From positions 1 through 36,523 of the forward strand of contig NZ_JACHVA010000131.1 of assembly GCF_014230055.1 (NCBI RefSeq): a DNA stretch of 36,523 bases, read 5' to 3'. This DNA comes from Puniceicoccus vermicola (GTDB taxonomy: Bacteria > Verrucomicrobiota > Verrucomicrobiia > Opitutales > Puniceicoccaceae). The position numbers were made by a program, and so were the translations under genes. Position 1 is the first letter of the stretch. The number at the start of each line of letters is the position of its first letter. Under the pieces are notes generated by a model. That model was not told the origin of the DNA. It saw nothing but the letters and a program-made list of their open reading frames with translations, and searched no databases. Positions 3,047 to 36,523 of this stretch are shown here, one piece after another.

Positions 3047-3082
3047 GCCGGGTAGGGTGAGGAAGAGGCGAATCCCCGTCAA

Positions 3083-3100
3083 TGCTCAACAGTTTGAATC
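3083..3100. promoter_or_regulatory. Operator 1 (LacI-type palindrome), repressor/dehydrogenase intergenic region
   Basis: TGCTCAACAGTTTGAATC matches the perfect-arm copy at 15033 at 15 of 18 positions. It lies between the divergent starts at 3046 and 3145, so one bound dimer could repress both genes. Confidence 0.65.
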
Positions 3101-3144
3101 CGGAGGTTCTGGTTCTTTGCGGCGGAGGGGTTCAGACTGTTTCC

Positions 3145-4191
3145 ATGACCCAATTTGCCGAGAAGTCTCGACTCAGTTCTGGAGAAGACCGCCGCTCCCA
3201 GTCCTGCCGTGCCGTCTTGGCGTTGAACGAGAAGGAAATGGATTTGTTTTTCCCGAAGGGATTTGCGCCGGGCGGTCTGGAGGTCGCCCACTATCGGGGA
3301 GGTTGGGATGCGGAGGCATTTTGGGAGGATTTGCAGCGGCATGAGGCGGAGTTGGTGGTCACTTGTTGGTCGACGCCTCCTTTTCAGGAGGAATGGCGGG
3401 AGACGCTTTCTTCGTTGCGGTACGTGTGCCATGTGAGTGGAGCGGTTCGCAATCTGTTGCCGCGGGTCTATTTGGAGGAAGGCTTGCTGGTGACGAATTG
3501 GGGGAATCTGGCGGCGGCCAATGTGGCGGAGCACGCACTTTTGTTACTGCTGGCGGGGTTGCGCCGACTTTCCGAGTGGCCGAGTGTCATTGCGGGGAAA
3601 CGTCCTTGGCAGCCGTCTCCGATCGTGACGCGGACCCTTTTCGGCAAGCGGGTGGGCTTGCACGGATTCGGCAATGTGGCACAAAGTTTATCGCGACTTT
3701 TAAAACCGTTCGGGGTCGAGATCTCCGCGTATTCGGAGGGGGTGCCGGAGGGACTCTTCGGGGAGTTTGGCGTGAGCCGAGCCGATTCGCTGGAAGCCCT
3801 CTTCGAAGGGAATGAGATTGTGGTGGAGTGCGAGGCTTTGAATCCCCGGACGCAGGGAGTGGTGACGCGGGAGGTGTTGGAGCGGTTGCCCACGGGGGCG
3901 TTGTTTGTGAATGTTGGGCGAGGGGCAGTCGTGGATGAGCAGGCTCTCTCGGAGTTGTCGGCAGCGGGGCATATCGGCGTGGCGCTGGATGTATTCGATA
4001 CGGATCCGATTCGCCCGGACTCGCCTCTTCATGATTTGGAGGATGCGGTGCTTTCTCCCCATATCGCGGGGCCGACAAGCGATCAATTTGCCCGATGCGG
4101 AGAGCTCGCTGTTCGAAATATTGAAGCGTATCTGGAAGGATCTCCTTTAGAGGCTCAGGTTTCTCTGGAGATTTACGATCGGGCCACTTGA
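3145..4191 (+). CDS. D-isomer-specific 2-hydroxyacid dehydrogenase
   Basis: A 348-aa NAD(P)-dependent oxidoreductase of the D-2-hydroxyacid dehydrogenase family. The Rossmann motif is GLHGFGNVAQ. The substrate Arg is in NVGRGAVVDE and the catalytic His in LSPHIAG. The acidic partner is expected between these in the ALDVFDTDP segment. It would interconvert a 2-keto acid and a D-2-hydroxy acid in the cytoplasm. The start is uncertain: the frame is open from an ATG at 3082, but that start would overlap the operator at 3083-3100, whereas the ATG at 3145 has a GGAGGGG sequence 14 bases upstream. The SSS symporter follows after 102 bases on the same strand. Together with the divergent LacI gene this suggests catabolism of a sugar acid; the actual substrate cannot be read from sequence. 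Confidence 0.88.
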   Translation: MTQFAEKSRLSSGEDRRSQSCRAVLALNEKEMDLFFPKGFAPGGLEVAHYRGGWDAEAFWEDLQRHEAELVVTCWSTPPFQEEWRETLSSLRYVCHVSGAVRNLLPRVYLEEGLLVTNWGNLAAANVAEHALLLLLAGLRRLSEWPSVIAGKRPWQPSPIVTRTLFGKRVGLHGFGNVAQSLSRLLKPFGVEISAYSEGVPEGLFGEFGVSRADSLEALFEGNEIVVECEALNPRTQGVVTREVLERLPTGALFVNVGRGAVVDEQALSELSAAGHIGVALDVFDTDPIRPDSPLHDLEDAVLSPHIAGPTSDQFARCGELAVRNIEAYLEGSPLEAQVSLEIYDRAT

Positions 4192-4250
4192 CTGTTTTTG
4201 CCGGAAGAATTTTTCTCGTCCTTGATATCCCCACCTCGTCGAAAAATCGG

Positions 4251-4265
4251 AGTATCGCTGATACT
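4251..4265. promoter_or_regulatory. Inverted repeat upstream of the symporter gene
   Basis: AGTATC-GCT-GATACT is a perfect 6-bp inverted repeat with a 3-bp spacer, 28 bases before the symporter start. It differs from the LacI-type operators. It may be a protein-binding site or a small hairpin; function is unknown. Confidence 0.35.
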
Positions 4266-4293
4266 TTCCGTTTCGACCCTCTAACCGATCCCC

Positions 4294-6099
4294 ATGAAAA
4301 TTGAATACCTTACGCTAATCGTTTATCTCGGCGTCTTGCTGACGCTTGGGGGGCTTTTTGCCCGATTCAACAAGAACCTCAGCGACTTTGTGCGCGGCGG
4401 AGCGCAGGGGACTTGGTGGATGGTGGGCACCAGCATGCTGATGAGTGGAATCAGTGCGTTCACTTTCACGGGCAATGCCGCGGCAGCTTTTGAAGGGGGG
4501 CCGAGTTTGCTGGTCATCTACGCTGCGAATTGCCTGGGATTTGTCATCGGGGGGCTTTTTCTCGGACGTTGGTTTCGGCAAACCCGGGCTTACACCACGG
4601 CGGATGTCGTGCGGACTCGTTTTGGTGTTCCGGTTGAGCAGTTCTCCGCTTTTTCATCATTGTTTCTCGGACCGTTCGGGGCCGCGATCCAACTCTATGC
4701 ACTTTCGCTCTTCACGAGCACGGTGTTGAACATTCCGCTCATCCCCGTGCTGGTCACCATCGGGATCATTGTCACCTTCTACTCGACGACGGGGGGGAAG
4801 TGGGCCGTGATGGCGACGGACTTCGTGCAGGCTTTGGTGATGTTCGGCATCACGATTCTTGTCTGCTATCTCTCGCTGAAGGCCGTCGGTGGTTTTGATG
4901 CGTTTTTCGGGTTTTTCAAGGATCCCAGGTTTGCCGATGATTTTCGGTTCTTCAACGATGCGGGGCAGTTCGAAGGGGATCGCTTCACTTACAAATGGGC
5001 TGCGGTGATCTTCTTCATGCAGATTTATTCGCAAATCAGCATCAGCCAGGCCGGGCGCTTTATTGCGGCCCGGGACGGGAAAGAGGCTTCGCTCTCCTCT
5101 TGGTGGGCTTTTGTGCTCATGGCGGCGGGGAGTGCGATCTGGTTTATTCCGCCGATGGTCGCCCGCTTTCTTTTCGAGGCCGACATCGTGGGCAGCGGCG
5201 TTGAAAAACCCTCGGAAAGTTCCTACGCTTACATTGCCACTGAGCTTTTACCCAATGGCATGCTGGGGATGCTGATCGCGGCCATGTTTGCGGCTACGAT
5301 GAGTAGTATGGACTCGGGGTTGAATGCCCAGGTGGGCAACATCGCCCGCAACATCGTGCCGAGAATTCGCGGGGCTCTGGGTTACCAGAATGAGCTCTCA
5401 CCCAAAACCGAAATCCGTATCTGCCATATTGCGACGGTGGTCCTGGGGATCATTATCATCGCCTACGGAATCCTCATGGCGCGGCAGAGTGAGATCGCCC
5501 TGTTTGATGCGTATCTGATCATCGGCTCGATTATCGGAGTTCCGATGGGCTTTCCGCTGCTGATGGGGCTATGGATTAAGAAACTTCCGAAGTGGTCCTA
5601 CTTCCCGATTTTTGTCGCCTGCATGGTCCCCACGATCTGGTCCTTCATCGACAAAAAGCTCAATGGCACCGATTGGACGATTCAGGAAAGAACGTTGTGG
5701 ATCCTGATCTTCGGCTTGGTGGCCACCGTGATTTGTCGCCTGCTGTATTTCATCACTTCGGAGCGTGCCCGCAAGGATGTGGACGAATTTTTCGAAACCA
5801 TGCATACCCCGATCGACTACGAGAAAGAGGTGGGGTCGACGGCAATTGACTACGATCAGTACTTCGTCCTCGCCAAGGCTGTGTTTGGGGTGGGGCTGGC
5901 GGTTTTGCTGATATTGCTCGTCCCCAATGATCTGGCCGGGCGCCTGTGTATCCTCTTCGTGTCGGGCTTTATCTTGATCGCGGGGGTTTTACTCTACCTC
6001 GGCGGAAAGCGGTCGAAGAAGAGAGTGGAGAAAGCGATGAAGGCTGGAAAACTTTCGGCCGAAGATCTTCCTCCTCCTGATGTGAGTCAGATTCTTTGA
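4294..6099 (+). CDS. Sodium:solute symporter (SSS family)
   Basis: A 601-aa polytopic membrane protein. The N-terminal YLTLIVYLGVLLTLGGLFAR helix followed by the FVRGGAQGTWWMVGTSMLMS block is typical of the SSS family. TM3 begins AFTFTGNAAAAFEGG. A later AAMFAATMSSMDSGLNAQ segment is the conserved SSS block (TM8-like) associated with Na+ binding. Length and helix number (about 13, then a charged tail after residue 580) are normal. It would import an organic solute, commonly a sugar or sugar acid in this phylum, with Na+. It lies 102 bases downstream of the dehydrogenase on the same strand, so co-transcription is likely. No Shine-Dalgarno sequence precedes the ATG. Confidence 0.92.
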   Translation: MKIEYLTLIVYLGVLLTLGGLFARFNKNLSDFVRGGAQGTWWMVGTSMLMSGISAFTFTGNAAAAFEGGPSLLVIYAANCLGFVIGGLFLGRWFRQTRAYTTADVVRTRFGVPVEQFSAFSSLFLGPFGAAIQLYALSLFTSTVLNIPLIPVLVTIGIIVTFYSTTGGKWAVMATDFVQALVMFGITILVCYLSLKAVGGFDAFFGFFKDPRFADDFRFFNDAGQFEGDRFTYKWAAVIFFMQIYSQISISQAGRFIAARDGKEASLSSWWAFVLMAAGSAIWFIPPMVARFLFEADIVGSGVEKPSESSYAYIATELLPNGMLGMLIAAMFAATMSSMDSGLNAQVGNIARNIVPRIRGALGYQNELSPKTEIRICHIATVVLGIIIIAYGILMARQSEIALFDAYLIIGSIIGVPMGFPLLMGLWIKKLPKWSYFPIFVACMVPTIWSFIDKKLNGTDWTIQERTLWILIFGLVATVICRLLYFITSERARKDVDEFFETMHTPIDYEKEVGSTAIDYDQYFVLAKAVFGVGLAVLLILLVPNDLAGRLCILFVSGFILIAGVLLYLGGKRSKKRVEKAMKAGKLSAEDLPPPDVSQIL

Positions 6100-6185
6100 T
6101 TCCCCATCCTGTCCAGGGGAACGATTCCTCGGAGTCCTGCACTCCGGCTCCGTGGGAAAGCGGCCTTCCGGACGTGCGATGGAGT

Positions 6186-6953
6186 TTATTCCGTGGGAAC
6201 TGGAGCCCTTTCGATCAGCTTTCGAATCAGGAGGTCTTCGGTGAGCGGTCGGAGTTCTGTCGCTTGTTCGTCCACGAGGACGAGGGTGGAGCGAGTCCCC
6301 GGCAGGGTGATTTGTGGGCCTCCGATTCGCAGTTTCCAATCATTTTGCCCTTCTTGCGTCGCTACGTTCAGCAGAGCTTGTTTCGCGCCACTTTGGGGAT
6401 AGGGATAAGTGGCGGATTCCCCGGGGCCGAGAAGTTTGACCTTTCCGGCCGTATCGAGCTTTACGAGGGTATGTCGCTCGGATAGGTTGAAAACCAGTAG
6501 CGTCTCAAGGGGGTGACTTTCCCATGAGTCTTGGGCGACAAATGTTTTGATCCGGTTTGGATTGGTGGCGGATTCCGTCATGAACACGAAGAGACTCCCG
6601 GGTTTCTGATCTAGATCGATTTCGGTCACCGTGACCCGTTGGGGTTCGGTCTCTCCTTCCTTGGGGGGAAGCAGGCGATAGAAATCCAAGGTCCCTTTTT
6701 TCGGGAGAGGGTAGGTGCGGGAAAAGCTAGTCGTGCGCGCTCTTACCGGAATTTTCTGATCGTCATAATCGTAGTAGAGATCGTTGATCGGAGCGAGCAG
6801 GGAAAGGGTTCGAAAGCTCGCCTCCGGCTGTTTTAGGGGAGAGGTTTGTGCGTTTATCTCGGTGTTTCCGAAGAAGATCAACCCGAGGAGGAAAAGGTTT
6901 TTCCAGTGCCCGCGAGTGGAAGAGCGCTTTAGATTTGTTCGGGTCGGAGCCAT
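6186..6953 (-). CDS. Exported protein of unknown function, partner of the PilX-like protein
   Basis: A 255-aa protein with a basic N-terminus and a hydrophobic segment (NLFLLGLIFFG, about residues 19-29) ending near INAQ, consistent with a signal peptide. The rest is beta-rich and soluble, with no recognised catalytic motif. Its start overlaps the end of the 1152-aa PilX-like gene by 25 bases, implying translational coupling. I infer that the two act together at the cell envelope, but the sequence shows no direct function. Confidence 0.7.
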   Translation of the reverse strand: MAPTRTNLKRSSTRGHWKNLFLLGLIFFGNTEINAQTSPLKQPEASFRTLSLLAPINDLYYDYDDQKIPVRARTTSFSRTYPLPKKGTLDFYRLLPPKEGETEPQRVTVTEIDLDQKPGSLFVFMTESATNPNRIKTFVAQDSWESHPLETLLVFNLSERHTLVKLDTAGKVKLLGPGESATYPYPQSGAKQALLNVATQEGQNDWKLRIGGPQITLPGTRSTLVLVDEQATELRPLTEDLLIRKLIERAPVPTE

Positions 6954-9900
6954 CGTAACGAAAGGATTTTGAATTTGCGTCCGAATGCCAGATTCTCGGC
7001 GTTCAGGCTGCTTGCAGTATCATCGGAAGTGTTCGCGCTTTCGTCGATATAGTCGATCTTGCGTTGGACAATGGCCTCGCACCAAATGCGTCCTCCGGAT
7101 TTCCGAGTGAGCGGATCCATGACTTCGCCGTAGGTGCGAATGACGAAGGTGTCGGAGCGGGCGCTGAGTCCTGACCCAATGGCGGAGAGAATATCCCCCT
7201 GGGTGAGGAATTGAGGCGAGAACGCTGATTTAGAGCCATAGGCCCGAGTCTCCTCACTCGGGCCACTGTAGCCTTTCAAGAGGTCGAGGTCGTAGTTGTT
7301 GAAGCCCGAGCCTCCAGTGGGGGCATTGGGCTGCGAGTCGTAGAAAGGATTGCTTCCACGTGCGGCGTAACTGTTGGTTTCGCCCGCATTGATGGCAGCC
7401 GAACCGGTATAGGTTCGGTCCAGCGCGGCTTGAAGGACCCCGGTGAAGCGTTCATCGGTCGCGGTGGATGGGTTGTCGACCAAGCGCCGGTTGATGAAGT
7501 CGGCCAGGGAGACGAAGGGACCGCGATTTCGGCTTTCTGCGACGATGTTTTTTGCGAGTTCGGCAATCTGCTCGTCGGTGAGTTGCTTGTATCCCTGCCA
7601 GGCCCAGGACTGATTTCCCGAGGCGGAGGTCGGTCGGCTGAACCGTGGGAGAGGGGACTGAAGTTCCGTGCCCGAGGCGGAGCCGGTTTCCGGATTGTAG
7701 GCGAGCTGGTTGATTCCGCCCAATATTGCCCGCCACGCCTGTTCCGAAGTGGAATTTATGTTGAAGCCGCCGTTCACGGAAAGACCCGACGCTGCCAATG
7801 ACGCATCACGCAGATCCGAGTCAGATATAGTATCGGATCTGAGAATACGGGAGTTCGGGAGTTCGTTGGGGATTGTTGTAGAACTCGTGTCGGAGTTGGA
7901 GCCAGTGCCAGCGTGGGGAACGGTCGAGACAAAATACCGATCCCAGAGGCTTCGATTGAGTAGCCATGAAATGTCATAGTAGGCTACAATGGAATTGGTC
8001 GGGCGGTAATAGGAATTGAGGCTCTCGGCCATGCTTTGATAGACCTGTCCAAGTTGATCCTTGAAGTGGAAGTCTCCGACGCCGTTCCCGATCGGGTAGG
8101 CCGGGTACGTATTCAGCTTGGAAAGATTCGCATGTTGTAGTTGTCCGAGAGCTAATAGCGGTTGTGACTCCGGTCGGATTTCGAACAGCGTTGTATCGAT
8201 GATCTCGGACGCCGAATCCAGCGAGATCCCGGAGGAGGCACGCTTCAGTCCGCTCTCCATGGTGAACTGGTCGAGGCTGATTCCCTTGTTGCAACGACCG
8301 AAGTAGTTCAGCGGTTGTCCGTCGAGTTCGCTGCGGGTCACTAAGGGAGCGCGAGGATTGTTTTGCGCGATCCAACGAGTTTCCACATAGGTGTTTGGCG
8401 ACTCGGAGACATCCGAGAATATCTTATTGAAGCTGATGACAGAGGTCGGACCTACTGGATAATCGAGGGGGCCTTCGTCCTGAAGAAGATGGACTTCGGC
8501 ACCGCCGCTTCCCTGGGTGATTCGGTTGATTGACTGATACCACTGTTGATCGTTCGAGCTATCGGTCGTGTAGTCGCTGCGTCCCTGATCGACGACTCCC
8601 AAGTATAAGTCGGATTCGCCCCGTTGCATATTGACTCGGCGAGTGCTGGGGTCTTCTCCGATAAATTCGTAGTTGGAGACACGGAAGTCATATGCGGATT
8701 CGCCGGGTCCAAAATCAAGTCCGTTGCGATTGAGAAGAATGAAGTTGTAGGCTTTGTATCCCTCGTCATTGGTCAGCACATTGGTCGGCACGTCGTTTTG
8801 CGGTGCGCTGTACTCTTTGCCGCTTTCGGAATCCGGTAGCGAAAAGATCAAACTCTCACCGGGTTGGATCGTCGGGGAGTCGATGAGAAAGCGGACATAG
8901 CTTCGATAGGTGCCACTGGAAGCACCCTTCGAAAAATCGATGGTTTCTTTCGCGACCCAGTTGGGGTCCGTGGGATCGAGACTATCGTTCATCTGGAGTT
9001 GAATTCGTGCGTAGGTGCGATTGGTGTAGCCCACCTCGTATTGCGCGGCGGCAATCGGAGTGGTGTAGGGGTTCCAGAGAACGACGACCGGATACATCGC
9101 GAGACGGATCGGCGCTCCGTCGGCAGCACCTTGCGGAGCCACATATTCGAGACCGAGAGCAAAGTAGGTGAGTACGGGCGAGATGCCTGTCTGGGTTTCT
9201 GTCGGCAGCCGCGGGGTCAGCCCGGTCGCTGGTGCCGTGGTCTGCGCGAAGCTCCTCAACATTCCCCACGTCGGAACGCCAAATTCGTCCCCACTGCCAC
9301 CTTCAGGGGTAAACAAGTATTCGTCATTCAATGGAGTGGTCGCGTCGGTTGCCAACAGGGCGGAGAGATCTTGTTTGAGTCCGCCTGCGTAGCTGTCGAC
9401 CGGAAGTGATTCGGAGTGGGGGGTCAGGTGGTGGAAATTCGTGCGTACGGCCGTTTTCATGTCCGACTCGCTCTGTGCTGCAGTGAAGGCCAAATCGCCG
9501 AGCCAATTGATTTTTGGCGAAGCACTGTAGGTCGGATCGAAATTGTTACCGATCAATTGAGTGGGATCGAAGGCGTTCAGGTTTTCTTGGTCGACGAGCT
9601 CGATGGCCGCGCGTTGGGCGGTGACAAAAGCGGCCGGCAGTTGGGTGCCCGATGGCATGCCCATGGTCACATTGGCTTTGGCGTTCTCATCGCCGATCCA
9701 CCACGCGTAGCGGCCGGAGGTTGAGGCATTTGGATCGAATTCGACGAGGGGAGCGGCAACGTGGTCGGAGGCTCGGTTGACTGTGTTCGGGCCGACGAGG
9801 GCGACCTGTGTGTCAGTGGAGGACGGAGCTGTGCTGATGCGATCGAGATCGATAGCACTGTTTGGTTCGAAATTGAACGATGCGGGAGGTGATTCGATGT

Positions 9901-10387
9901 GCCCGTCAGCGGCTACTTCCATGTTGGGAATGGTCTCGTTGCCACTGACCAGCCAATTGAGCAATCTCGCTTGGGAGCCTCGAGAATTCGAATGGGTTGT
10001 GATCGTCTGAGCCAGGGAGCTGGGAGGCGCAGTGTAGTCTGCGGATGCGGCGTTTCCGTAAACACCGATCCAGTTTCCGTTTGCCGTGGTACTTCCCGTC
10101 CAATTTTCATTGAGGTTGGCGGTCGCGGTCGTGCGCTGGTCGGGGCCAGCATATTTTTGCAGTTCGCCGACGGCAACATTGAGGGCCAAAAGCGCATTTT
10201 GCCGGGCGATCTTTACTTGAGCGGTCTGGATCGATTGTTGGGCTTCGATTTGCGTGACCGAAATCAGCGTAACGAGAATCAAGAGGATGAATCCCATCAG
10301 CATCAGCGCAGTGATCAGCGCAAAACCGTCCGTCCGTGGTGATCCAGTGTCTTTGTCGGGTGTGGTTTTAAAGTGAGGTAGTTGCAT
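6929..10387 (-). CDS. Very large PilX-like / pseudopilin-like exported protein
   Basis: A 1152-aa protein. Residues about 21-48 (DGFALITALMLMGFILLILV) resemble a type IV pilin/PilX leader: a short polar leader, Gly before Phe, then one long hydrophobic helix. Unlike classical pilins, the Glu at mature position 5 is absent (FALIT). Then comes an amphipathic stretch, ARQNALLALNVAVGELQKYA, followed by AGPDQRTTATA, a block I recognise from large Verrucomicrobia proteins annotated as PilX-like. The remaining ~1000 residues are Ser/Thr/Asn-rich, with YYDISWLLNRSLWDRYFVST near residue 810. It lies between the CE7-type esterase gene (36 bases upstream) and the 255-aa exported protein in a minus-strand run with carbohydrate enzymes. 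I infer a surface or secretion-system part used with polysaccharide degradation. No catalytic domain is recognised. Confidence 0.8.
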   Translation of the reverse strand: MQLPHFKTTPDKDTGSPRTDGFALITALMLMGFILLILVTLISVTQIEAQQSIQTAQVKIARQNALLALNVAVGELQKYAGPDQRTTATANLNENWTGSTTANGNWIGVYGNAASADYTAPPSSLAQTITTHSNSRGSQARLLNWLVSGNETIPNMEVAADGHIESPPASFNFEPNSAIDLDRISTAPSSTDTQVALVGPNTVNRASDHVAAPLVEFDPNASTSGRYAWWIGDENAKANVTMGMPSGTQLPAAFVTAQRAAIELVDQENLNAFDPTQLIGNNFDPTYSASPKINWLGDLAFTAAQSESDMKTAVRTNFHHLTPHSESLPVDSYAGGLKQDLSALLATDATTPLNDEYLFTPEGGSGDEFGVPTWGMLRSFAQTTAPATGLTPRLPTETQTGISPVLTYFALGLEYVAPQGAADGAPIRLAMYPVVVLWNPYTTPIAAAQYEVGYTNRTYARIQLQMNDSLDPTDPNWVAKETIDFSKGASSGTYRSYVRFLIDSPTIQPGESLIFSLPDSESGKEYSAPQNDVPTNVLTNDEGYKAYNFILLNRNGLDFGPGESAYDFRVSNYEFIGEDPSTRRVNMQRGESDLYLGVVDQGRSDYTTDSSNDQQWYQSINRITQGSGGAEVHLLQDEGPLDYPVGPTSVISFNKIFSDVSESPNTYVETRWIAQNNPRAPLVTRSELDGQPLNYFGRCNKGISLDQFTMESGLKRASSGISLDSASEIIDTTLFEIRPESQPLLALGQLQHANLSKLNTYPAYPIGNGVGDFHFKDQLGQVYQSMAESLNSYYRPTNSIVAYYDISWLLNRSLWDRYFVSTVPHAGTGSNSDTSSTTIPNELPNSRILRSDTISDSDLRDASLAASGLSVNGGFNINSTSEQAWRAILGGINQLAYNPETGSASGTELQSPLPRFSRPTSASGNQSWAWQGYKQLTDEQIAELAKNIVAESRNRGPFVSLADFINRRLVDNPSTATDERFTGVLQAALDRTYTGSAAINAGETNSYAARGSNPFYDSQPNAPTGGSGFNNYDLDLLKGYSGPSEETRAYGSKSAFSPQFLTQGDILSAIGSGLSARSDTFVIRTYGEVMDPLTRKSGGRIWCEAIVQRKIDYIDESANTSDDTASSLNAENLAFGRKFKILSLRWLRPEQI

Positions 10388-10423
10388 GGGATGGAGTCCT
10401 GGTGGTCGTGGGGAACAGGCATT

Positions 10424-11770
10424 TTACTCGTTTTTCGTGTGTTTGAGAATGAAGTTGTGGTAGATCTTGCGCAGGTCGGAAGAGGGAACGGACAGGCCAT
10501 GATGGGTGCCGTCGGGGACACTGATGATTTCTTTCGGAGCCTTGATCTGGTTGTAGACGGCGAAGACTGACGGGGCCGGGCAGGTCGTATCCGAGAGGCC
10601 GACGGTGATCAGGGTGTCGCCTTGGATGCGGCTCGCGAAGTTTACGGTATCGAAATAGCTCATGGTCTTCTCAACGACATCTCCTTCGGGGGTACCGGTC
10701 TTGGCCTTATTGAGTCCGGGCCAGCCGGGGATCTCGCCGGCAATGTTGCTCAAGGCCGGGACGATGGCGATCGTGGCCGATACGCGTGAATCCAGACCGG
10801 CGGCAGCCAGGGCTTGGCCTCCTCCTTGGCTGACCCCGTAAGTGATGAGGTTTTTGCCGTCCCATTCCGGGCGAGAGCAGAGAAAATCGATGCCCCGGAG
10901 CAAGCGGAGATTCATGCCGAGGAAGTAGTTGTTGTCGCGATCGTCGTTGCCTTGGTAGCGATAGTTCTTCAGCTCCCCATCCTCCAGCTCGTCGTAGTAG
11001 GACTGTGGTTGGCCGTTGAGCATGCCGTGGGCATTGATGTCGAGGACCAGGGCCTTGTATTTCTCTGCCATGGCGAGCGTGTTGACCAGGCTGGAGCGGC
11101 ACCAGCCGCCTTTGACTCCAGCGGCGTGGAAGACGAGGATTGCCGGATTTTCCCCGGCTGAAGAATCGCTGGGCATGGCAAAGTATCCCCGCATGGGTTC
11201 TGTCCCGGGGGTGGGAATCTCGACGTTGAAATAAGAGTAGCCCATCGCTTCCAGACGCTGAACTTTGGCAAGATGGTCGGGGTTTTGGGTTTCAATCGCA
11301 AACTGCTCGCTCGTGACCGGAGAAACGATCGCTTCTGCGGGGGAGGCTGCGAGCCGGGCTTTTTGTTGGTTCCAGAACTTGTCGAAATCGGCCGGTGTTT
11401 CCCGGGTGGGCTCGAAGGAATCCGCGCCGAATACGATCCCCGACATCGCTGCGGGACGACGTTCGCCGGGAAGCAGCACGGAGCAGCGAAACCAACCGCT
11501 TTCACGCGATGTATAGGTGACCTCTTGATTGGCGGCCGCAGTGTCGAGTGACACCGTATCGAGCGTTTTCCAAAGGTTCTTCGTCAGACGATATTCCGCG
11601 GTTTTCGAGGAATCCGGATTCTTGTTTTCGATCGCAAAGGTCGCGGTTTCTCCCATGTCATAGAGCCCGTCGGAGTGATCGACGGAAATCGAATAATCGG
11701 ACTTGGCCGCTTGAGCACTTGCGAAAGGGATCGCGAGTGCGGCTCCGAGGAAGAGGTATGGTTTTAGATT
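10424..11770 (-). CDS. Exported acetylxylan-esterase-like hydrolase (CE7/AXE1 type)
   Basis: A 448-aa protein starting at an ATG with a clear signal peptide (YLFLGAALAIPFASAQA, residues 6-22). An Ig-like N-terminal domain (to about residue 110) precedes an alpha/beta-hydrolase domain of the AXE1/CE7 type. The nucleophile Ser315 is in GVSQGGG, Asp395 is in GLSDTTCPAPS, and His424/425 is in GTHHG. It would remove acetyl or similar esters from carbohydrates in the periplasm or outside the cell. The open frame extends 26 codons upstream of the chosen start, but that would bury the signal peptide. It lies 28 bases after the GH37 gene and 36 bases before the PilX-like gene, so it is probably in the same transcript. 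Close relatives act on xylo-oligosaccharides or cephalosporin C; the substrate here is unknown. Confidence 0.87.
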   Translation of the reverse strand, partial: NLKPYLFLGAALAIPFASAQAAKSDYSISVDHSDGLYDMGETATFAIENKNPDSSKTAEYRLTKNLWKTLDTVSLDTAAANQEVTYTSRESGWFRCSVLLPGERRPAAMSGIVFGADSFEPTRETPADFDKFWNQQKARLAASPAEAIVSPVTSEQFAIETQNPDHLAKVQRLEAMGYSYFNVEIPTPGTEPMRGYFAMPSDSSAGENPAILVFHAAGVKGGWCRSSLVNTLAMAEKYKALVLDINAHGMLNGQPQSYYDELEDGELKNYRYQGNDDRDNNYFLGMNLRLLRGIDFLCSRPEWDGKNLITYGVSQGGGQALAAAGLDSRVSATIAIVPALSNIAGEIPGWPGLNKAKTGTPEGDVVEKTMSYFDTVNFASRIQGDTLITVGLSDTTCPAPSVFAVYNQIKAPKEIISVPDGTHHGLSVPSSDLRKIYHNFILKHTKNE

Positions 11771-11798
11771 CATAAGCGATTCGAGTATTTGGAAAGGA

Positions 11799-13133
11799 TT
11801 ACGCGATGAATGCGGTCGATGAGACCGGCGAGAGCCAGTAGGGTTCACCTTCCTCCAGGAAGGCTAAGGCGTCGAGGAAGACACCTGCAGTCCAGCCCAT
11901 CATGGCCGGAGGTTCCGAGGGAATGCCCGTGTCGGCGGTGTTGTTGGCGAGGGTATCGGGATTGATGAGATAGCCGGCTTCTTCGGTGGCATGATGGCTC
12001 CCATCCAGAACGTTGTATTTCTCCCAGAGATCACCGGTCTTCTCGAAAGTTTGGGTCACGCATTCAACGTATTTTTCAGCAATTCGTCGGGCTGCATCGT
12101 GGTACCCGTAGCGTTCGAGGCCCCGGTAGGTGATGTGCTGGAGGCAGGCCCAGGCGTTTGGGTGATCCCATTGGAAACGGCCGGAAAACTCGCTCGGTGC
12201 GGTCGGGGAGATCCCGTAGGCATGTTCCAGTCGAGGAAGGAGGTTGCGAACGACGCTGGAGGCCTGATCGCGGGAGGCCAAGCCCGCCCAGAGAGGTTGG
12301 AAGGATGCGGCGGATTCAACCGTACTCAATGCTTGGTTGCGAAGATCGTAGTCGACAAAGATTCCGAGTTCCGGGCTCCAGCAGTAGTCTTTGATCAGGT
12401 TTTGCCGAAGTTCCGCTCTCAGTTGCCACTTGGCCCAGTCGGATTCGGTCGGGGCCCACTGGGATAGGAGGATTTCATAGAGCCAGAGATTTGTATTGAG
12501 ATCGATGGAGCAGAATTCGGCACAGCGGTGGTCGAAGCGGGAGTTGAAGTCCCATCCGGACTCGCATTCGGCCATTGCCTGATAGGCGGTGGACACCTGA
12601 TCTTCGGCTCGTTCATCCGCCCGTCCGAGCCGATGTTTGACCGTCTGGAAGAATTCTTGCAGCTCGTTCGAGGTGGCGTGATTTCCGTAGTGGGCCAATC
12701 CGACGGTCGAACTTCTGCGTGTCGTCCAAAATTCGTACTCCTGCTCAAGAAGCGGATAGGCGGCGCTCCGTAGTTCATGGTCGCCGCGATGATGATCCAC
12801 GAGTCCCACCATGGCGGCGAGGTAGGGAGGCTGGGACCGGTTCAGGTAGTAGCTTCGGTTCCCGTTGGGGACGTAGCCGTAGCGTTGGACCTGCGCGAGA
12901 AGGTTGCGCGCATTATTCTCGGCGAGCTCGATGCGGTCGGAATGAATCAGCCCGAGAGTCGAAAAGTAGGTATCCCAATAGTAGAATTCCTGAAAGGCTC
13001 CTTTGCGCGACGGAATCGTGTAGGGGTGGGGGAGGCCAATGAGAGTGCCGTCGTCTTCCGTGCAGGAGCGGATGGTCTCGTCCCATTGGGAGAGAATGAA
13101 AGCTTTGACTTCGGATGTGCGGGTGGAAGACAT
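11799..13133 (-). CDS. GH37 trehalase-like glycoside hydrolase
   Basis: A 444-aa protein carrying both GH37 signatures: RKGAFQEFYYWDTYFSTLGL (residues 43-62, cf. PGGRFxExYYWDSY) and QWDHPNAWA (321-329, cf. QWDxPxGWAP). The catalytic Asp195 is in ESGWDFNSRF and the likely catalytic base Glu371 is in LWEKYN, matching the positions known for E. coli trehalases. It would hydrolyse alpha,alpha-trehalose or a related alpha-glucoside. It has no signal peptide and is shorter than typical trehalases (535-565 aa), so it is probably cytoplasmic and compact. An 18-bp LacI-type operator lies 74 bases upstream. It is the first gene of a tight minus-strand run with the esterase, PilX-like and exported genes. 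The first signature has Lys in place of one Gly (RKGAF), so the true substrate may not be trehalose. Confidence 0.87.
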   Translation of the reverse strand: MSSTRTSEVKAFILSQWDETIRSCTEDDGTLIGLPHPYTIPSRKGAFQEFYYWDTYFSTLGLIHSDRIELAENNARNLLAQVQRYGYVPNGNRSYYLNRSQPPYLAAMVGLVDHHRGDHELRSAAYPLLEQEYEFWTTRRSSTVGLAHYGNHATSNELQEFFQTVKHRLGRADERAEDQVSTAYQAMAECESGWDFNSRFDHRCAEFCSIDLNTNLWLYEILLSQWAPTESDWAKWQLRAELRQNLIKDYCWSPELGIFVDYDLRNQALSTVESAASFQPLWAGLASRDQASSVVRNLLPRLEHAYGISPTAPSEFSGRFQWDHPNAWACLQHITYRGLERYGYHDAARRIAEKYVECVTQTFEKTGDLWEKYNVLDGSHHATEEAGYLINPDTLANNTADTGIPSEPPAMMGWTAGVFLDALAFLEEGEPYWLSPVSSTAFIA

Positions 13134-13206
13134 GACGGAGTTTCGTGTCGGTTGGGGGGATTGAGAGTATTAGAGTTTCTGGAGAAGCCGAGGCCAAGAT
13201 CTGCGC

Positions 13207-13224
13207 TATTCACACTGTTGAGCG
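13207..13224. promoter_or_regulatory. Operator 4 (LacI-type palindrome) upstream of the GH37 operon
   Basis: TATTCACACTGTTGAGCG is the weakest copy, with 14 of 18 matches to the best site in reverse orientation. The core ACTGTTGAGC is fully kept. It lies 74 bases before the GH37 start. Confidence 0.5.
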
Positions 13225-13309
13225 GTTGGTTGCGGACTTTCCCGGGCGATGGATCGGGCTGGGTCGGACGCGGAGAATGTCTATCGCGTCGACGGGATCT
13301 GTGATTGTC

Positions 13310-14743
13310 TCAGGGTTGTTCCGTCCGGCGGACGGAGACATCATTGACGTAGAGATGCCATTTTGCGGGAGTTTCGCTCGATCCGAAAAGGATGCGATCG
13401 ACAAAGTTCACGGGATGGGTCGTGGAAACGTCGGAAAGAGCGGGGGTTCCGTCGAGGAAGATATCCGCGGTCTGGGCTTCCGGACGAAGGTCGACTCTGA
13501 CCTCGTGCCAAGTGTTCTTCTGGATCGGGCCGACGATTTGCGGGGTCCCCTCGGAATCGATGAAGATGAGATTGCCTTTGCCATCGGTCTCTAATTCGAC
13601 CGCGGTGGTGTTTCCGCTGAGAAGTTGCATGCGATGTCCTTTGAGAATGCCGTTCTCTTTGAACGACCAGCGGGCGGTGATTGGCTGGCTTTGGGGAAGG
13701 AAGCTCTTCCAGGCCTCCGCATAGCCTTCCGGGTTCTCATCCCAGAATTGCATGCACTGGCCCGGGTCGCCAGCGATTTCGCGGATGGCGACATTGGTTT
13801 GCCGCTCAGCGTGGACGTGCCATCCCTCGGGCCTCTTATTCGTCGGCATCGCATCGAAAGTTTCCTCAAGGACGACGGCGGGCGGCTCCTCGGGGCTTGT
13901 CGACTGGGTTCCATATCCGGTGGGTTGAACGAGAGAGAAGGCGTCTTCGGGGTTCCCTACGATGTAGGCGATGTCGTCATAGAAAATCTCCCGGGTTTCT
14001 CCCTCATCATAGTTGCGGTAGTCCCAGCAATAGGGGCCCCATTTGATATAGGCACCGGCTGTCATTTCCTCCGAGGTTGTCCAGCCGCCGTTCCCCAGTT
14101 TGATGTCCGTGTACTCGACCGTGGGCTCGGACTCGGGCGCACCATCCATCCATGCCCGGAGGATGCCCGTGTTGTTGTTGGAGAATTTGCAGTAGAGGAT
14201 GAAATCGTGCCAGGTCTCTTTGGTGAGTTCCGGGGCGAGCGTGGTGTAGACGGTGACCTCCTTGCGTCCGTCGCCGACACCGTAGGCACCTTCGAGCATG
14301 AGTGCTCCGTTGTCTTCGAGGTGAACGGTGATCGTGATGTTGGTTTTGGGCAGGCTGTGGTCCCAGGCGTGGATTTGGCCGAGCACGATGTTTTTTCCCG
14401 GAGTGGGGAAATCGGCGGGGGCATAGAGGCTGAACCCAAACCAGCCTTCGCTGGTGATTCTCGGTAAGTGAAATCCGGAGGACCCTTCGACGCTACGGCC
14501 GGACCGGCGTCCATTGTAGTTTTCTTCCTTCCAGACGATGCGATGGACCTTGGAGCCGGAGCGGGCGGGAAAGTCCGTGGGCTCGACGATCTCGGAAACG
14601 TTTCCTTCGAGAACTTCGACGTTGAAAGGGGAGAAGCTTCCATCCTCGAAATCTTCCGAAGCGGTCTGAGCATAGTTCGCAACCGGAAGGGCGAGAGTGA
14701 TGATTCCAAGCGCGGCGATAAATGGGGTTCTATTCTTCATCAT
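13310..14743 (-). CDS. Secreted polysaccharide-lyase-like protein with C-terminal LamG-like domain
   Basis: A 477-aa protein starting at tandem ATGs (14743/14740) with a signal peptide (FIAALGIITLALPVANYAQ). The frame upstream, to a TTG at 14812, would run across the operator and is rejected. Residues ~25-270 look like the heparin-lyase-I-like jelly-roll group (PF14099, PL13/PL20-type). Supporting segments are RIVWKEENYNGRRSGRSVEG, GWFGFSLYAPADFPTPGKNI, an AWMDG turn and a GETREIFYDDIAYI strand. A second concanavalin-like domain (VVLEETFDAMPTNKRPEGWH to the end) probably binds carbohydrate. The family cleaves uronic-acid polysaccharides or binds glycans; catalytic residues could not be verified. 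It has its own operator and faces the opposite way to the PEP-CTERM gene. Confidence 0.72.
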   Translation of the reverse strand: MMKNRTPFIAALGIITLALPVANYAQTASEDFEDGSFSPFNVEVLEGNVSEIVEPTDFPARSGSKVHRIVWKEENYNGRRSGRSVEGSSGFHLPRITSEGWFGFSLYAPADFPTPGKNIVLGQIHAWDHSLPKTNITITVHLEDNGALMLEGAYGVGDGRKEVTVYTTLAPELTKETWHDFILYCKFSNNNTGILRAWMDGAPESEPTVEYTDIKLGNGGWTTSEEMTAGAYIKWGPYCWDYRNYDEGETREIFYDDIAYIVGNPEDAFSLVQPTGYGTQSTSPEEPPAVVLEETFDAMPTNKRPEGWHVHAERQTNVAIREIAGDPGQCMQFWDENPEGYAEAWKSFLPQSQPITARWSFKENGILKGHRMQLLSGNTTAVELETDGKGNLIFIDSEGTPQIVGPIQKNTWHEVRVDLRPEAQTADIFLDGTPALSDVSTTHPVNFVDRILFGSSETPAKWHLYVNDVSVRRTEQP

Positions 14744-14805
14744 GAGGTTTTGAAGTTTGTGCTCCTTACTGTCGTTGACGTCGGTCCAATAGCCAAGTGT
14801 CGACT

Positions 14806-14823
14806 TGCTCAAACTGTTGATCT
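14806..14823. promoter_or_regulatory. Operator 2 (LacI-type palindrome) upstream of the lyase-like gene
   Basis: TGCTCAAACTGTTGATCT matches the reverse complement of the site at 15033 at 16 of 18 positions. It lies 63 bases before the ATG at 14743. Confidence 0.65.
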
Positions 14824-15032
14824 CGGGGATCGACGGGGGTCATCGTGCAAGGCTCGATGCGAAAGAATGCATCGGCGCTTTGCCGATGAATGAGGGATCA
14901 AGTTCTTTGTAGCATCCCCTCGTAAGGCGGATGACGGAGGCGGGCGGGAACACTCCTGAAGATTTGCAGGGAACGGTCTTTTCGGTGGCTAAGGTGCTGA
15001 ATGTGAGAGAGCAGAAGTCGATCAACGGCTAC

Positions 15033-15050
15033 TGCTCAACAGTTTGAGCA
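15033..15050. promoter_or_regulatory. Operator 3 (best LacI-type palindrome) upstream of the PEP-CTERM gene
   Basis: TGCTCAACAGTTTGAGCA has perfect 7-bp arms (TGCTCAA/TTTGAGCA with a 4-base centre) and serves as the reference for the other three sites. It lies 84 bases before the gene start. An 18-bp even-spaced palindrome is a usual size for a LacI-family operator, although the centre here is AC/AG rather than CG. Confidence 0.7.
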
Positions 15051-15133
15051 ATGATCGGGTTGCTGATTTTGAGCAAATCCCCCATAAATTTGGGCAGAAA
15101 CTATAACTCGAACCACCCTAACCCCCCAAGAAA

Positions 15134-16048
15134 ATGAATAAAAAAGGAATGAGAAGTACCCTGTTCTCGGCGATTGATTTCAAGTCCAGCTTGCTGGCGA
15201 TCGGAACTCTGTCTACTTTCATGGTTGGATCCGTGGAGGCGGTCGACATCGGATATTGGACTTTCGAGGAAGGCCTGGCGGGGACCGATATCGTTACCGC
15301 CGTCAGCTCGGCGAATAGTCCGACTATGGACGCGACGCAGCATTCGGGCAATGAGATCCCCGCCGCTTACAGTAGCAATGTGGGAGGCGCCTACGTTTAT
15401 GACCCGGTCAGTGGATCGTATCGGTCGAATAATTTGTCCATGTATGGTGCGGCAGGTGCTGCGAGTGACGACACTCAGCTCGTTATTACCGGGGGATCGA
15501 GTCAGTTGACCAATAGCTATACGGTCGAAATGTTCATCCTTGTCACGGATCCCAATAATGGTGACGGGCCCGCGAATCTTTCAGGCACTGACCGGATCGT
15601 GAACATCGACGGAAATACCCGCTACAATGTTAACGTGGGAAGTAACAATCTTCAGTTCCGAGTGGATACGCCCACTGACAGTAGTGGCACGTCCGTTTAC
15701 GAATACGGAGCCCCCCTCGAGGATGGGCAGTGGCATCACTTGGGGTTCACCCTGGATTATGACAGTCTTGTCGAGCAGACGACGATTTCTCTTTATGTTG
15801 ACTATGCTAACGCGGGTTCGGTGGTCATCGATGGACAGTTTGATCCCTTCAATGACATTCGGTTCGGGCATGATGGAAGCAATGATGGCATCTATGACTG
15901 GTGGTTCGACGAGGTTCGCATCAGCGATTCCGCGCTGACGAGCGATCAGTTCCTCCGTTATTCGGCCGTACCGGAGCCCTCGACCTTGGCATTGATCTCG
16001 GGAGTGATTGCCCTCGGCATCGTCGTGACGCGCCGGCGTCGTTCGTAA
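15134..16048 (+). CDS. PEP-CTERM protein with LamG-like domain
   Basis: A 304-aa exported protein. The N-terminal hydrophobic segment (SLLAIGTLSTFMVGSVEA, about residues 19-36) is a signal peptide. A LamG/concanavalin-like domain occupies about residues 40-270, with YTVEMFILVTDPNNG and GQWHHLGFTLDYDS strands and a WWFDEVRISDSALTSDQF end typical of LamG domains. The C-terminus is a PEP-CTERM sorting signal: VPEPSTLAL, a hydrophobic helix and the RRRRS tail. Such proteins are exported and processed by exosortase, usually at the cell surface or in exopolysaccharide. The best LacI-type operator lies upstream, so it is probably induced with the carbohydrate genes and may bind the glycan. No exosortase gene is in the window. 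Confidence 0.88.
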   Translation: MNKKGMRSTLFSAIDFKSSLLAIGTLSTFMVGSVEAVDIGYWTFEEGLAGTDIVTAVSSANSPTMDATQHSGNEIPAAYSSNVGGAYVYDPVSGSYRSNNLSMYGAAGAASDDTQLVITGGSSQLTNSYTVEMFILVTDPNNGDGPANLSGTDRIVNIDGNTRYNVNVGSNNLQFRVDTPTDSSGTSVYEYGAPLEDGQWHHLGFTLDYDSLVEQTTISLYVDYANAGSVVIDGQFDPFNDIRFGHDGSNDGIYDWWFDEVRISDSALTSDQFLRYSAVPEPSTLALISGVIALGIVVTRRRRS

Positions 16049-17310: not shown

Positions 17311-18399
17311 ATGCGGTTTGGTGTCAGAACTCCTCTTGTTTGGATTGGGCTCGCATTCGGGCTGTGGCTTTCGCTTGGCGTTTTCCCTGCGCAAGCGCAG
17401 CGGGCGGTGGAGGCGGGGATGCCGAATCCTCCCGGTCGTCCTACGGAGGTCAAAGTGGGGGTGTTTCTGGCCGACATCATTGATGTCGACGAGTTGAACG
17501 AAACCTTTGAGGTCGAGTTGATCTTGACGGCGGAGTGGGAAGATCCCCGATTGGCCTTTGACCCGGCAGAGGAAGGGACTGCGGAGAAACTTTTTCAGGG
17601 AGCCTTTCAATTTAACGAAATCTACGCAGCCTGGTGGCCCCAGCTTCTGTTCGTGAACCAAATTGGGAGTGGCGATACCAACGCCGTGAAAATCTCCATT
17701 TTTCCCGATGGGCGCGTGCGTTATCTGGATCAACGTAGTGTCCTCTTGGAGACTCCGATGGCTTTGCGGGCCTTCCCCTTCGATCATCAGAGTTTGGTGG
17801 CGAAGATCGTATCGTTTGGGGACTACAGCAATCAGGTGAAGCTTACGGTCGATGAACGGGTGTCCGGGGCGAGCGAGGAATACGCAGAGGTGAACGACAA
17901 GGTGAACATCGCCCAATGGGAGCTGAAGAGTGTCGAGTTGGAAGAGGGCGAGGCTGATTTTCGCTATTACGGGGGGCGCGAGAATTTCTCTGAGCTGACC
18001 CTTACGATCGGTTTGAAGCGCAAATCCGGGAACCTGATTTGGAAGGTGATCTTACCGCTGGTTATTCTGGTGCTCCTGATGTGGGCGGTTTTCTGGATGG
18101 ACGAGGACAACCTTTCCGATCGTCTGAATGTTTCTTTTATCGGGATTCTGACTATCGTGGCCTATCAGTTCCTGATTGATGGCTCGATGCCACGAATCGA
18201 TTACTTCACCTTCACCGATGCGGTGTTGCTGTATTCGTTTTTGGTGATGTGCCTGACGATTTTCGAGAGCCTGGTCCTGTATTCCCTCTGTAAAAAGGGG
18301 CGTAAAGAGTTTGCCGAGAAAATCGATGTGGTCTTTCGCTGGTTCTTCCCGGTGCTCTATTTCACCGGCGTGATCGCGAGCTACTTCTACTACATTTAG
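17311..18399 (+). CDS. Bacterial pentameric ligand-gated ion channel (Cys-loop-like, ELIC/GLIC type)
   Basis: A 362-aa protein with a signal peptide (WIGLAFGLWLSLGVFPAQAQ, residues 11-30) and a beta-sandwich extracellular domain to about residue 232. Four membrane helices follow: LIWKVILPLVILVLLMWAVF, then the pore helix beginning LSDRLNVSFIGILTIVAYQF, a TM2-TM3 loop with MPRIDYFTF, then DAVLLYSFLVMCLTIFESLV, and WFFPVLYFTGVIASYFYYI at the C-terminus. The loop ALRAFPFDHQSL carries the invariant Pro of the Cys-loop with the cysteines absent, as in prokaryotic members. The TM2 start SDRLNVSF resembles ELIC (SERLQTSF as I recall it). It should form a pentameric channel in the inner membrane opened by an external small ligand. 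The ligand is unknown. The gene stands alone, divergent from the TSP3 protein and followed by the 179-bp array. Confidence 0.9.
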   Translation: MRFGVRTPLVWIGLAFGLWLSLGVFPAQAQRAVEAGMPNPPGRPTEVKVGVFLADIIDVDELNETFEVELILTAEWEDPRLAFDPAEEGTAEKLFQGAFQFNEIYAAWWPQLLFVNQIGSGDTNAVKISIFPDGRVRYLDQRSVLLETPMALRAFPFDHQSLVAKIVSFGDYSNQVKLTVDERVSGASEEYAEVNDKVNIAQWELKSVELEEGEADFRYYGGRENFSELTLTIGLKRKSGNLIWKVILPLVILVLLMWAVFWMDEDNLSDRLNVSFIGILTIVAYQFLIDGSMPRIDYFTFTDAVLLYSFLVMCLTIFESLVLYSLCKKGRKEFAEKIDVVFRWFFPVLYFTGVIASYFYYI

Positions 18400-18460
18400 T
18401 CGGGAAGGCGTCGTAAAAGTCTCATCTGCGGGTTTTTGCCGACTGCGTATCGCTGGGACG

Positions 18461-19581
18461 GACCGCACGACTAAAGTCATGCGGGTACGGGGGGATTGCG
18501 AAGGAGCGGAGGGAGAGGGTTCCTTTAGGTCCCTCGCGTTGCCTCTCCGGTAGGGCCGTAACTTTAGTTGCGCCCTTGCGTTGCCGCTCGGCCCGCGTGG
18601 TTGATCGGTCTCACCCGGCCTTCGCCCGAGGTTGGGGGGGACCGCACGACTAAAGTCATGCGGGTACGGGGGGATTGCGAAGGAGCGGAGGGAGAGGGTT
18701 CCTTTAGGTCCCTTGCGTTGCCTCTCCGGTAGGGCCGTAACTTTAGTTGCGCCCTTGCGTTGCCGCTCGGCCCGCGTGGTTGATCGGTCTCACCCGGCCT
18801 TCGCCCGAGCCTTCGCCCGAGGTTGGGGGGGACCGCACGACTAAAGTCATGCGGGTACGGGGGGATTGCGAAGGAGCGGAGGGAGAGGGTTCCTTTAGGT
18901 CCCTCGCGTTGCCCCTCCGGTAGGGCTGTAACTTTAGTTGCGCCCTTGCGTTGCCGCTCGGCCCGCGTGGTTGATCGGTCTCACCTGGTCTTCGCCCGAG
19001 GCTACGGGGGACCGCACGACTAAAGTCATGCGGGTACGGGGGGATTGCGAAGAAGCGGAGGGAGAGGGTTCCTTTAGGTCCCTCGCGGTGCTTCTCCGGT
19101 AGGGCCGTAACTTTAGTTGCGCCCTTGCGTTGCCGCTCGGTCCGCGTGGTTGATCGGTCTCACCCGGCCTTCGCCCGAGGCTATGGGGGACCGCACGACT
19201 AAAGTCGTGCGGGTACGGGGGGATTGCGAAGGAGCGGAGGGAGAGGGTTCCTTTAGGTCCCTCGCGTTGCCCCTCCGGTAGGGCCGTAACTTTAGTTGCG
19301 CCCTTGCGTTGCCGCTCGGCCCGCGTGGTTGATCGGTCTCACCCGGCCTTCGCCCGAGGCTATGGGGGACCGCACGACTAAAGTCGTGCGGGTACGGGGG
19401 GGATTGCGGAGGAGCGGAGTGAGAGGGTTCCTTTAGGTCCCTCGCGTTGCCCCTCCGGTAGAGCCGTAACTTTAGTTACGCCCTTGCGTTGCCCCTCGGT
19501 CCGCGTGGTTGATCGGTCTCACCCGGCCTTCGCTCGAGGCTATGGGGGACCGCACGACTAAAGTCATGCGGGTACGGGGGA
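18461..19581. repeat. Tandem array, six 179-bp units plus a partial seventh
   Basis: Units beginning GACCGCACGACTAAAGTC start near 18461, 18640, 18831, 19010, 19189, 19368 and 19548. The period is 179 bases, with one 191-base unit caused by a 12-base internal duplication (CTTCGCCCGAGC-like, near 18808) and one 180-base unit. Copies are nearly identical. Each unit holds two small hairpins: CCGCACGACT-AA-AGTCGTGCGG (some copies have AGTCATGCGG), and a GTAG-headed one with core GTAACTTTAGTTGC. The final unit stops after the first hairpin. The array is immediately downstream of the ion-channel gene. The design is like REP/BIME elements; no spacers of CRISPR type are present. Confidence 0.93.
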
Positions 19582-28241: not shown

Positions 28242-28271
28242 TTCTAACTCACTAAAAAAAGAAAAAAAGAT

Positions 28272-29312: not shown

Positions 29313-29345
29313 TCCATTAAGTCGAATCAACAAGGAGCAAAGATT

Positions 29346-35165: not shown

Positions 35166-35400
35166 GGAGGGGTGCTCTAATTTCTGCTTCTTCCATAGGA
35201 CCGGGAATTGGAGCTGGAGGCAATGATTCTTTCTCTCCGTACCGTGCATCCCTCTGAAGCAGAATAAACGGCTGCGCCGCAGCGGAACGGAGGATCCAGG
35301 GAAAATCCCGCCACACCACTGAAGACCTCGGAAGTCCGAAGTAGTGAGAGCATCCTGCTCTCTCACACGTAGGAACGGGCAGGTTTCGTTCTCCCGCCGG

Positions 35401-35533: not shown

Positions 35534-35646
35534 GGAGGATCCAGGGAAAATCCCCGGCACAGCACTAAATACTCCGGAAAGCCCAAAGTAGTGAGAGCAT
35601 CCTGCTCTCTCACGCGTAGGAGCGGGCAGGATTCGCTTTTACGCTA

Positions 35647-36514: not shown

Positions 36515-36523
36515 GGAGGATCC

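Follow-up and report, generated by a model that had tools for sequence, protein, structure and literature searches.

The 36,523-bp stretch of Puniceicoccus vermicola DNA analysed here (the window) is an entire contig of a 5.2-Mb genome in 143 contigs. It carries a gene for a LacI-family regulator together with genes for a D-2-hydroxyacid dehydrogenase, a sodium:solute symporter, a trehalase-family hydrolase, an esterase, a polysaccharide lyase-like protein and a LamG-domain protein with a PEP-CTERM sorting signal (Table 1). Four copies of an 18-bp palindrome, putative operators of the regulator, lie among these genes. The initial annotation, which had described them as sites of a LacI repressor, gave their coordinates and match counts correctly. 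It had also placed each site just upstream of a gene start, which is borne out by the gaps between the edge of the site and the start codon, of 36 bp (LacI), 44 bp (dehydrogenase), 73 bp (trehalase-family), 62 bp (lyase) and 83 bp (PEP-CTERM) once the dehydrogenase start is corrected to 3145. The mechanically called dehydrogenase reading frame begins at 3082 and would overlap the 3083 site; because homologues begin later and an in-frame ATG at 3145 fits, we place this site between the two divergent genes.

Table 1. Putative operators, predicted promoter elements and genes of the LacI cassette, in window coordinates.
Feature	Position	Strand	Remarks
Putative operator	15033..15050	+	PEP-CTERM gene site, 18/18; same 18-mer at C. 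maritimus PEP-CTERM gene
Putative operator	14806..14823	-	Lyase gene site, 16/18; sites also precede the orthologous gene in three genomes
Putative operator	3083..3100	+	Between divergent lacI and dehydrogenase genes, 15/18
Putative operator	13207..13224	-	Upstream of trehalase-family gene, 14/18; third best with foreign matrix
-35-like box TTGGCC, predicted	13192..13197	-	Trehalase-family promoter, 9 bp from operator
-10-like box TCTAAT, predicted	13169..13174	-	Trehalase-family promoter, 17 bp from -35-like box
-35-like box TTGGCT, predicted	14791..14796	-	Lyase promoter, 9 bp from operator
-10-like position GACAGT, weak, predicted	14768..14773	-	Lyase promoter
-35-like box TTGCTG, predicted	15060..15065	+	PEP-CTERM gene promoter, 9 bp from operator
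-10-like box CATAAA, predicted	15083..15088	+	PEP-CTERM gene promoter
LacI-family regulator gene, 351 aa	1991..3046	-	Orthologues 70-72% in three genomes
D-2-hydroxyacid dehydrogenase	3145..4191	+	PF02826 123.8 bits; 63-67% identical in three relatives; start inferred from homologues
Sodium:solute symporter (SSF)	4294..6099	+	PF00474 116.3 bits; 78-80% identical in three relatives
Last gene of trehalase-family run	6186..6953	-	No Pfam match; conserved neighbour, ~35%
Protein with Verru_Chthon_A/pseudopilin-like N-terminus ('PilX' in the initial annotation)	6929..10387	-	Conserved neighbour, 53-54%
AXE1-type esterase	10424..11848	-	PF05448 111.9 bits
Trehalase-family (GH37-like) glycoside hydrolase	11799..13133	-	PF01204 284 bits (cut-off 21)
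Polysaccharide lyase-like protein	13310..14743	-	PF14099 76.2 bits (cut-off 29.9); 55-57% in three relatives
LamG-domain protein with C-terminal PEP-CTERM signal	15134..16048	+	PF13385 52 bits

The palindrome is even and, at 18 bp, within the LacI range of 16-22 bp; its best copy has 7/7 arm positions paired, the others fewer. In 100 dinucleotide shuffles of the window there were 0 matches to it at three or fewer mismatches, and in the whole genome of P. vermicola the 14-bp core with at most one mismatch occurs only at 15035, 3085 and 14808. The core match at 13209 is 1 of 30 in that genome at two or fewer mismatches, and is unremarkable by mismatch count alone. A matrix made from foreign sites recovers it together with the other three. 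This matrix was built, with the window sites excluded, from 7 distinct sequences representing 9 sites in three genomes of the Cerasicoccus group (G082, G103, which is Cerasicoccus frondis, and G116, C. maritimus; NCBI's taxonomy places these two species in Verrucomicrobiota, Puniceicoccales). It ranks 15033, 14806, 13207 and 3083 first to fourth in the window, all at 18.3 bits or more and the fifth match at 14.0; at the lowest threshold, 0.015 matches would be expected by chance in 36.5 kb of random sequence. Because the foreign sites had originally been picked by resemblance to the window's 18-mer, the ranking is only partly independent for 15033; it carries most weight at 13207 and 3083.

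Across 372 genomes of the order (P. vermicola itself, G000, and 371 others), the exact 15-mer TCAACAGTTTGAGCA occurs 13 times: twice each in G000, G082, G103 and G116, always within the cassette, and once each in five other genomes, where TTG at a 9-bp distance, looked for on both sides of the site, occurs in 0/5 cases. The only 4 of the 372 genomes with at least two exact copies are the four having the LacI orthologue. A pattern devised after the sites had been seen, consisting of the core, 12 unspecified nucleotides and TTG, has three exact matches in the P. vermicola genome (15033, 14806 and 13207) and eight zero-mismatch occurrences in the four genomes, each inside the cassette; allowing one mismatch adds the lacI/dehydrogenase sites and scattered others. 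No convincing regulon member far from the cassette was found with this pattern in the four genomes, and because its exact form is confined to the cassettes the regulon looks local. In keeping with the earlier proposal, the genome, 372-genome and pattern scans did not find the motif spread at random genome-wide without preference for gene starts. We consider it likely that the LacI protein runs a local regulon with these four sites as its operators.

The cassette is conserved and syntenic in the three Cerasicoccus-group genomes and so, with the window, is found in four genomes of two families. Some LacI homologue is present at E 1e-40 in 124 of the 372 genomes, and identity above 46% is reached, among the matches listed, only in G103, G082 and G116. 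The order in these relatives is LacI, divergent dehydrogenase, heparinase II/III-like lyase, symporter, unknown protein, Verru_Chthon_A-like, AXE1-like, trehalase-family and PF14099 lyase. The heparinase II/III-like lyase has no counterpart in the window and matches of only 24-28% elsewhere in the P. vermicola genome. Each relative has three sites, at lacI/dehydrogenase, before the lyase gene and before the PEP-CTERM gene; at the first of these the 12-bp core TCAACAGTTTGA is invariant in the four genomes and the flanks have diverged. The 13207 site is particular to the window, where 176 bp separate the lyase and GH37 genes, compared with 9 bp in the three relatives. RpoB of P. vermicola is 96% identical to that of two genus-mates (G022 and G041) and 77-78% to that of the Cerasicoccus group. 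Yet neither genus-mate has the LacI orthologue (G022 reaches 38% at best, and G041 has no match at 1e-40) or the GH37 gene, and the symporter is as much as 78-80% identical to its Cerasicoccus-group counterparts. A tRNA-His gene (1747-1823, +) and an IS4/IS5-type transposase fragment (1-765, -) that runs into the contig end adjoin the cassette. On these sequence features, acquisition by horizontal transfer is likely, though not proven.

The sites also share a position relative to predicted promoters. Toward the gene, the predicted layout is the operator, 9 bp of dissimilar sequence, TTGnnn, 17 bp and a -10-like hexamer; TTG falls exactly 9 bp past the operator in 9/9 lyase, PEP-CTERM and trehalase-family (GH37) promoters of the four genomes. 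Offsets of 0-30 and spacers of 16-18 were scanned against 2000 mononucleotide shuffles, and the combination 9/17 came out best in three sets: all 13 gene-facing sites, the 9 that remain when the dehydrogenase is left out, and the window's four non-homologous promoters. In each set 0/2000 shuffles did as well. For the three window promoters without the dehydrogenase, 1/2000 shuffles was as good as 9/17. With this layout the operator would span roughly -62 to -45. Judged by predicted boxes, it lies wholly upstream of -35 in 9/9 PEP-CTERM, lyase and GH37 promoters, but 0/4 dehydrogenase promoters have TTG at that place.

The spacing recurs with another operator. In G328 and G050, a LacI paralogue is paired with a different palindrome, TCTCTACACGTAGAGA (L113 3096 and 9356; L125 9798 and 14509), which, with at most one mismatch, has two matches only in these genomes among the 372. 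G000 and G022 have a single one-mismatch match each; both fall within open reading frames and were disregarded. This palindrome stands before PATR-type genes in both genomes (proteins 60% identical). In G050 it also precedes a pilin-like gene (TIGR02532 25.7 bits, cut-off 16.3), and in G328 it precedes lacI; TTG stands at exactly +9 in 3/4 sites, all non-lacI, and the fourth is that at lacI itself. The G050 PATR-type protein passes TIGR02595 and PF07589; that of G328 has a PEP motif by word pattern only, and reached neither TIGR02595 nor PF07589 at E 0.01. This second operator came to light in a de novo search for reused palindromes, which found 13.3 pairs per region in 24 LacI-homologue regions and 9.2 in 20 controls, with no separation between them because it was swamped by G+C-rich pairs. 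A more distant cassette of G050 (LacI 42%), with the core TCAACAATTTGA, comprises a PF14099 lyase gene, a GH37 gene, a pilin-like gene and a PATR-type PEP-CTERM gene. Separately, in a C. frondis region holding another LacI paralogue (L111 18830; G103 C4 32818), a site AATTCAACAGTTAGAATT followed by 9 bp and TTG stands before a pilin-like gene (18088-18801; TIGR02532 24.0 bits).

We propose that the LacI protein would bind the four sites and drive a local regulon for polysaccharide breakdown. Its targets would be the dehydrogenase and probably the symporter, which perhaps shares the dehydrogenase operon; the lyase; the trehalase-family hydrolase with the esterase and two further genes; and the LamG PEP-CTERM protein. 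At the lyase, GH37 and PEP-CTERM genes it would activate transcription through contact with RNA polymerase, made from a position at about -62 to -45, a step to which we give about an even chance. Activation is suggested because the operator lies upstream of -35, where, by the rule given for Bacillus CcpA in the available text of PMC3463425, sites activate, those overlapping the promoter repressing. At the 3083 site, which lies 36 bp from the lacI start codon (28 bp in C. frondis), the protein may repress lacI itself, and it is a possible dual regulator. What stands of the proposed LacI repressor regulon is a local LacI-type regulon of the dehydrogenase, the lyase, the trehalase-family operon and the PEP-CTERM gene, in four genomes; the word repressor is doubtful, as an operator at fixed spacing upstream of a -35-like box suggests activation, although lacI itself may be repressed.

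Most LacI-family proteins are repressors. Under classical repression, LacI on the same sites would silence all these promoters until a sugar released it, and the spacing would reflect blocked upstream contacts of the polymerase or common descent of the promoters. We put this possibility somewhat short of even. In its favour, fair -35-like boxes are present in the target promoters themselves, and in the available text of Ravcheev et al. (2014, PMC4052901) most LacI-family proteins govern sugar use locally, with 72% autoregulated. Repression, however, needs overlap rather than phase, and the exact 9-bp spacing upstream of -35 is shared by promoters that are not homologous and recurs with the other operator.

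Several observations weigh against LacI-bound operators in a fixed activating geometry. The three Cerasicoccus-group genomes are closely related, and their sites are non-independent. A CG centre, typical but not universal for LacI-family operators, is absent from all four window sites, which have CAGT; among 1303 LacI-family regulators, 49 have another central pair and 29 a degenerate one (PMC4052901, available text). The -10-like hexamers range from good (TCTAAT) to poor (GACAGT), several being poor, and TTG is found at +9 in 0/4 dehydrogenase promoters, which have TCGTTC or TGGTTC there. After all palindromes near LacI homologues, TTG shows no clear general peak at +9: the counts were 20 against a mean of 15.6 for palindromes with 7/8 pairs, and 3 against 0.67 for those with 8/8 pairs, the latter possibly second-operator sites already counted. 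The distant cassettes of G050, G368 and G310 have TT at +9 in 5/6 sites, TTG in 1/6, and weak -10 boxes. Finally, the CcpA rule has an exception in the lev operon (PMC3463425, available text).

A PEP-CTERM gene stands behind a site in 4/4 genomes holding the regulon. The sorting signal of the window protein scores 24.2 bits with TIGR02595 (cut-off 16) and 20.0 with PF07589, just below 20.7; the Cerasicoccus-group proteins have the same TIGR02595 signal above its cut-off and, where listed, PATR repeats below the Pfam cut-off. The window LamG protein matches the PATR-type proteins of the relatives over 30-31 residues only, taken to be the sorting signal, and the next gene downstream in the relatives encodes a CBM_4_9 protein. 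Exosortase genes are present in 10/10 genomes checked, and P. vermicola has 4 PF09721 matches, 3 of them above cut-off. Around LacI homologues more widely, a PEP-CTERM-like gene was found in 22/44 regions and in 6/40 controls (Fisher p 0.001), a count in which the regions were hand-picked and both batch 1 (12/24 and 2/20) and the PEP-CTERM gene of L110 had been seen beforehand. The fresh batch 2 was by itself not significant (10/20 and 4/20, p 0.096); 3 of its 20 controls held this LacI type, and L123, which is not LacI-centred, was excluded. The PEP-CTERM word pattern was tightened before the counted run, after two false matches in L137.

From its LamG domain and the CBM_4_9 neighbour in the relatives, it is plausible that the window PEP-CTERM protein is a glycan-binding surface protein, which would help the cell to retain the glycan at its surface. 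The gene could instead be a bystander, or encode an extracellular-matrix protein without a direct part in glycan capture. We regard this as a real but lesser possibility: a PEP-CTERM protein participates in floc formation in Aquincola (PMC9850573, available text), and the proteins behind the site differ between the window genome and the relatives. The LamG domain here and the neighbouring CBM_4_9 gene in the relatives speak against it, as does the recurrence of a site before the PEP-CTERM gene in all four genomes and again under the second LacI in two genomes. A second LamG PEP-CTERM protein is encoded in the window at 19775-20632 (-; PF13385, PF07589), with no operator-like site nearby among the best window matches.

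That the palindrome is bound by some other regulator encoded elsewhere, and not by the window LacI, we judge improbable. LacI binding is itself predicted from sequence, and an AraC-type gene (PF12833 62.4 bits) lies beside the C. frondis PEP-CTERM gene. Against this, only the four genomes that carry this LacI gene contain several copies of the motif, LacI is the sole regulator among the cassette genes matched in the window, and LacI relatives (42-46%) whose recognition helix is similar lie near the cores TCAACARTTTGA in G050, G310 and G368. Chance resemblance of four unrelated sequences, for which the weakness of 13207 by mismatch count might be argued, is practically excluded by the shuffles, the 372-genome count, the foreign matrix, the layout statistics and the core-N-TTG pattern.

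The LacI protein has a PF00356 helix-turn-helix (49.4 bits, cut-off 27) and a PF13377 effector domain (27.7 bits, cut-off 26.5). Trehalose, suggested by the initial annotation as a substrate, is doubtful if still conceivable: the GH37-like protein matches periplasmic trehalase 2jf4 at 8.7e-50 (phmmer), but its TreF/TreA scores are 188-196 bits against NCBIfam cut-offs of 512-941, and its neighbours are lyase-like. The PF14099 lyase-like protein had no PDB relative at E 0.01; those of the relatives' heparinase II/III-like lyase include a PL35 chondroitinase and an oligo-alginate lyase. Because the window has the one lyase and the relatives also the other, a uronic-acid glycan is hinted at, and the polysaccharide of the regulon perhaps contains uronic acids. 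The 6929..10387 protein scores 20.5 bits with TIGR02600 over residues 21-80, well short of the cut-off of 332.3.

A wider reading, offered tentatively and with more doubt than confidence, is that a clade of LacI-type proteins in the order of Cerasicoccus consists of locus-specific activators with a fixed operator-9 bp--35 geometry. These would switch on 'surface kits' of exosortase-sorted, lectin-like PEP-CTERM proteins and pilin-like proteins, which would do what SusD-like proteins do in Bacteroidota; regulator, operator and partner would be exchangeable, the layout would be kept and the kits would move between families.

Elsewhere in the window, a gene beside the regulon (17311-18399, +) encodes a neurotransmitter-gated ion-channel ligand-binding domain (PF02931 87.8 bits) and resembles a bacterial pentameric channel. 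Three tandem arrays, with 90-93% matches, lie at 18460-19580 (period 179 bp, 6.2 copies), 25060-25834 (191 bp, 4.0 copies) and 35289-36523 (246 bp, 5.0 copies). Consecutive genes for an ABC-transporter permease, an NMT1-like binding protein and a Rieske ring-hydroxylating oxygenase occupy 27411-30695 (+).

In SusCD-type polysaccharide utilization loci, a surface protein is co-regulated with lyases, hydrolases and a transporter. Unlike those loci, the window has no SusC or SusD among its annotated genes, and by analogy the PEP-CTERM protein may stand in their place. With the local LacI-family sugar regulons in the available text of PMC4052901, the regulon shares a lacI gene beside its targets, an 18-bp even palindrome, a site at lacI, carbohydrate enzymes and site distances (30-140 bp before starts there). 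It differs from them in its CAGT rather than CG centre, its exosortase-signal target and an operator fixed upstream of -35; the string 'Verrucomicrob-' occurs 0 times in that text. Bacillus CcpA, of the LacI/GalR family, likewise has operators upstream of -35, from which it is reported to activate ackA, pta and ilvB, but is global and works with HPr-Ser-P, whereas the window regulator looks confined to one locus (PMC3463425, available text). Dedicated transcriptional control of PEP-CTERM genes is likewise described for RpoN, probably with PrsK-PrsR; that system is sigma-54-dependent and tied to floc formation, and is not a LacI-type sugar regulon (PMC9850573, available text). ZepA, too, is an exoprotein with PEP-CTERM; its gene is preceded by palindromic motifs and, in some phyla, has a FUR-family gene close by. 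It serves zinc uptake, however, and not carbohydrate use, and its expression in Anabaena is reported to be constitutive (PMC10957091, available text).

A full-text literature search, with subscription journals mostly outside its coverage, listed no paper that by its title describes such a LacI/PEP-CTERM regulon. Its matches included a paper on Vibrio and a review on Planctomycetota in which the 'LacI' passages shown refer to Lacipirellula. What is new here is the fixed layout of operator, 9 bp, TTGnnn, 17 bp and -10-like hexamer at the lyase, PEP-CTERM and trehalase-family promoters. To our knowledge, most PEP-CTERM proteins are without an assigned function; the proposed regulon ties such a protein to the lyases of one cassette and predicts that whichever glycan induces these lyases is also a ligand of the PEP-CTERM protein. 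If the fixed geometry is confirmed, it would add local LacI-type activators, and operator + 9 + TTG would serve as a simple rule for finding their targets in Verrucomicrobiota.

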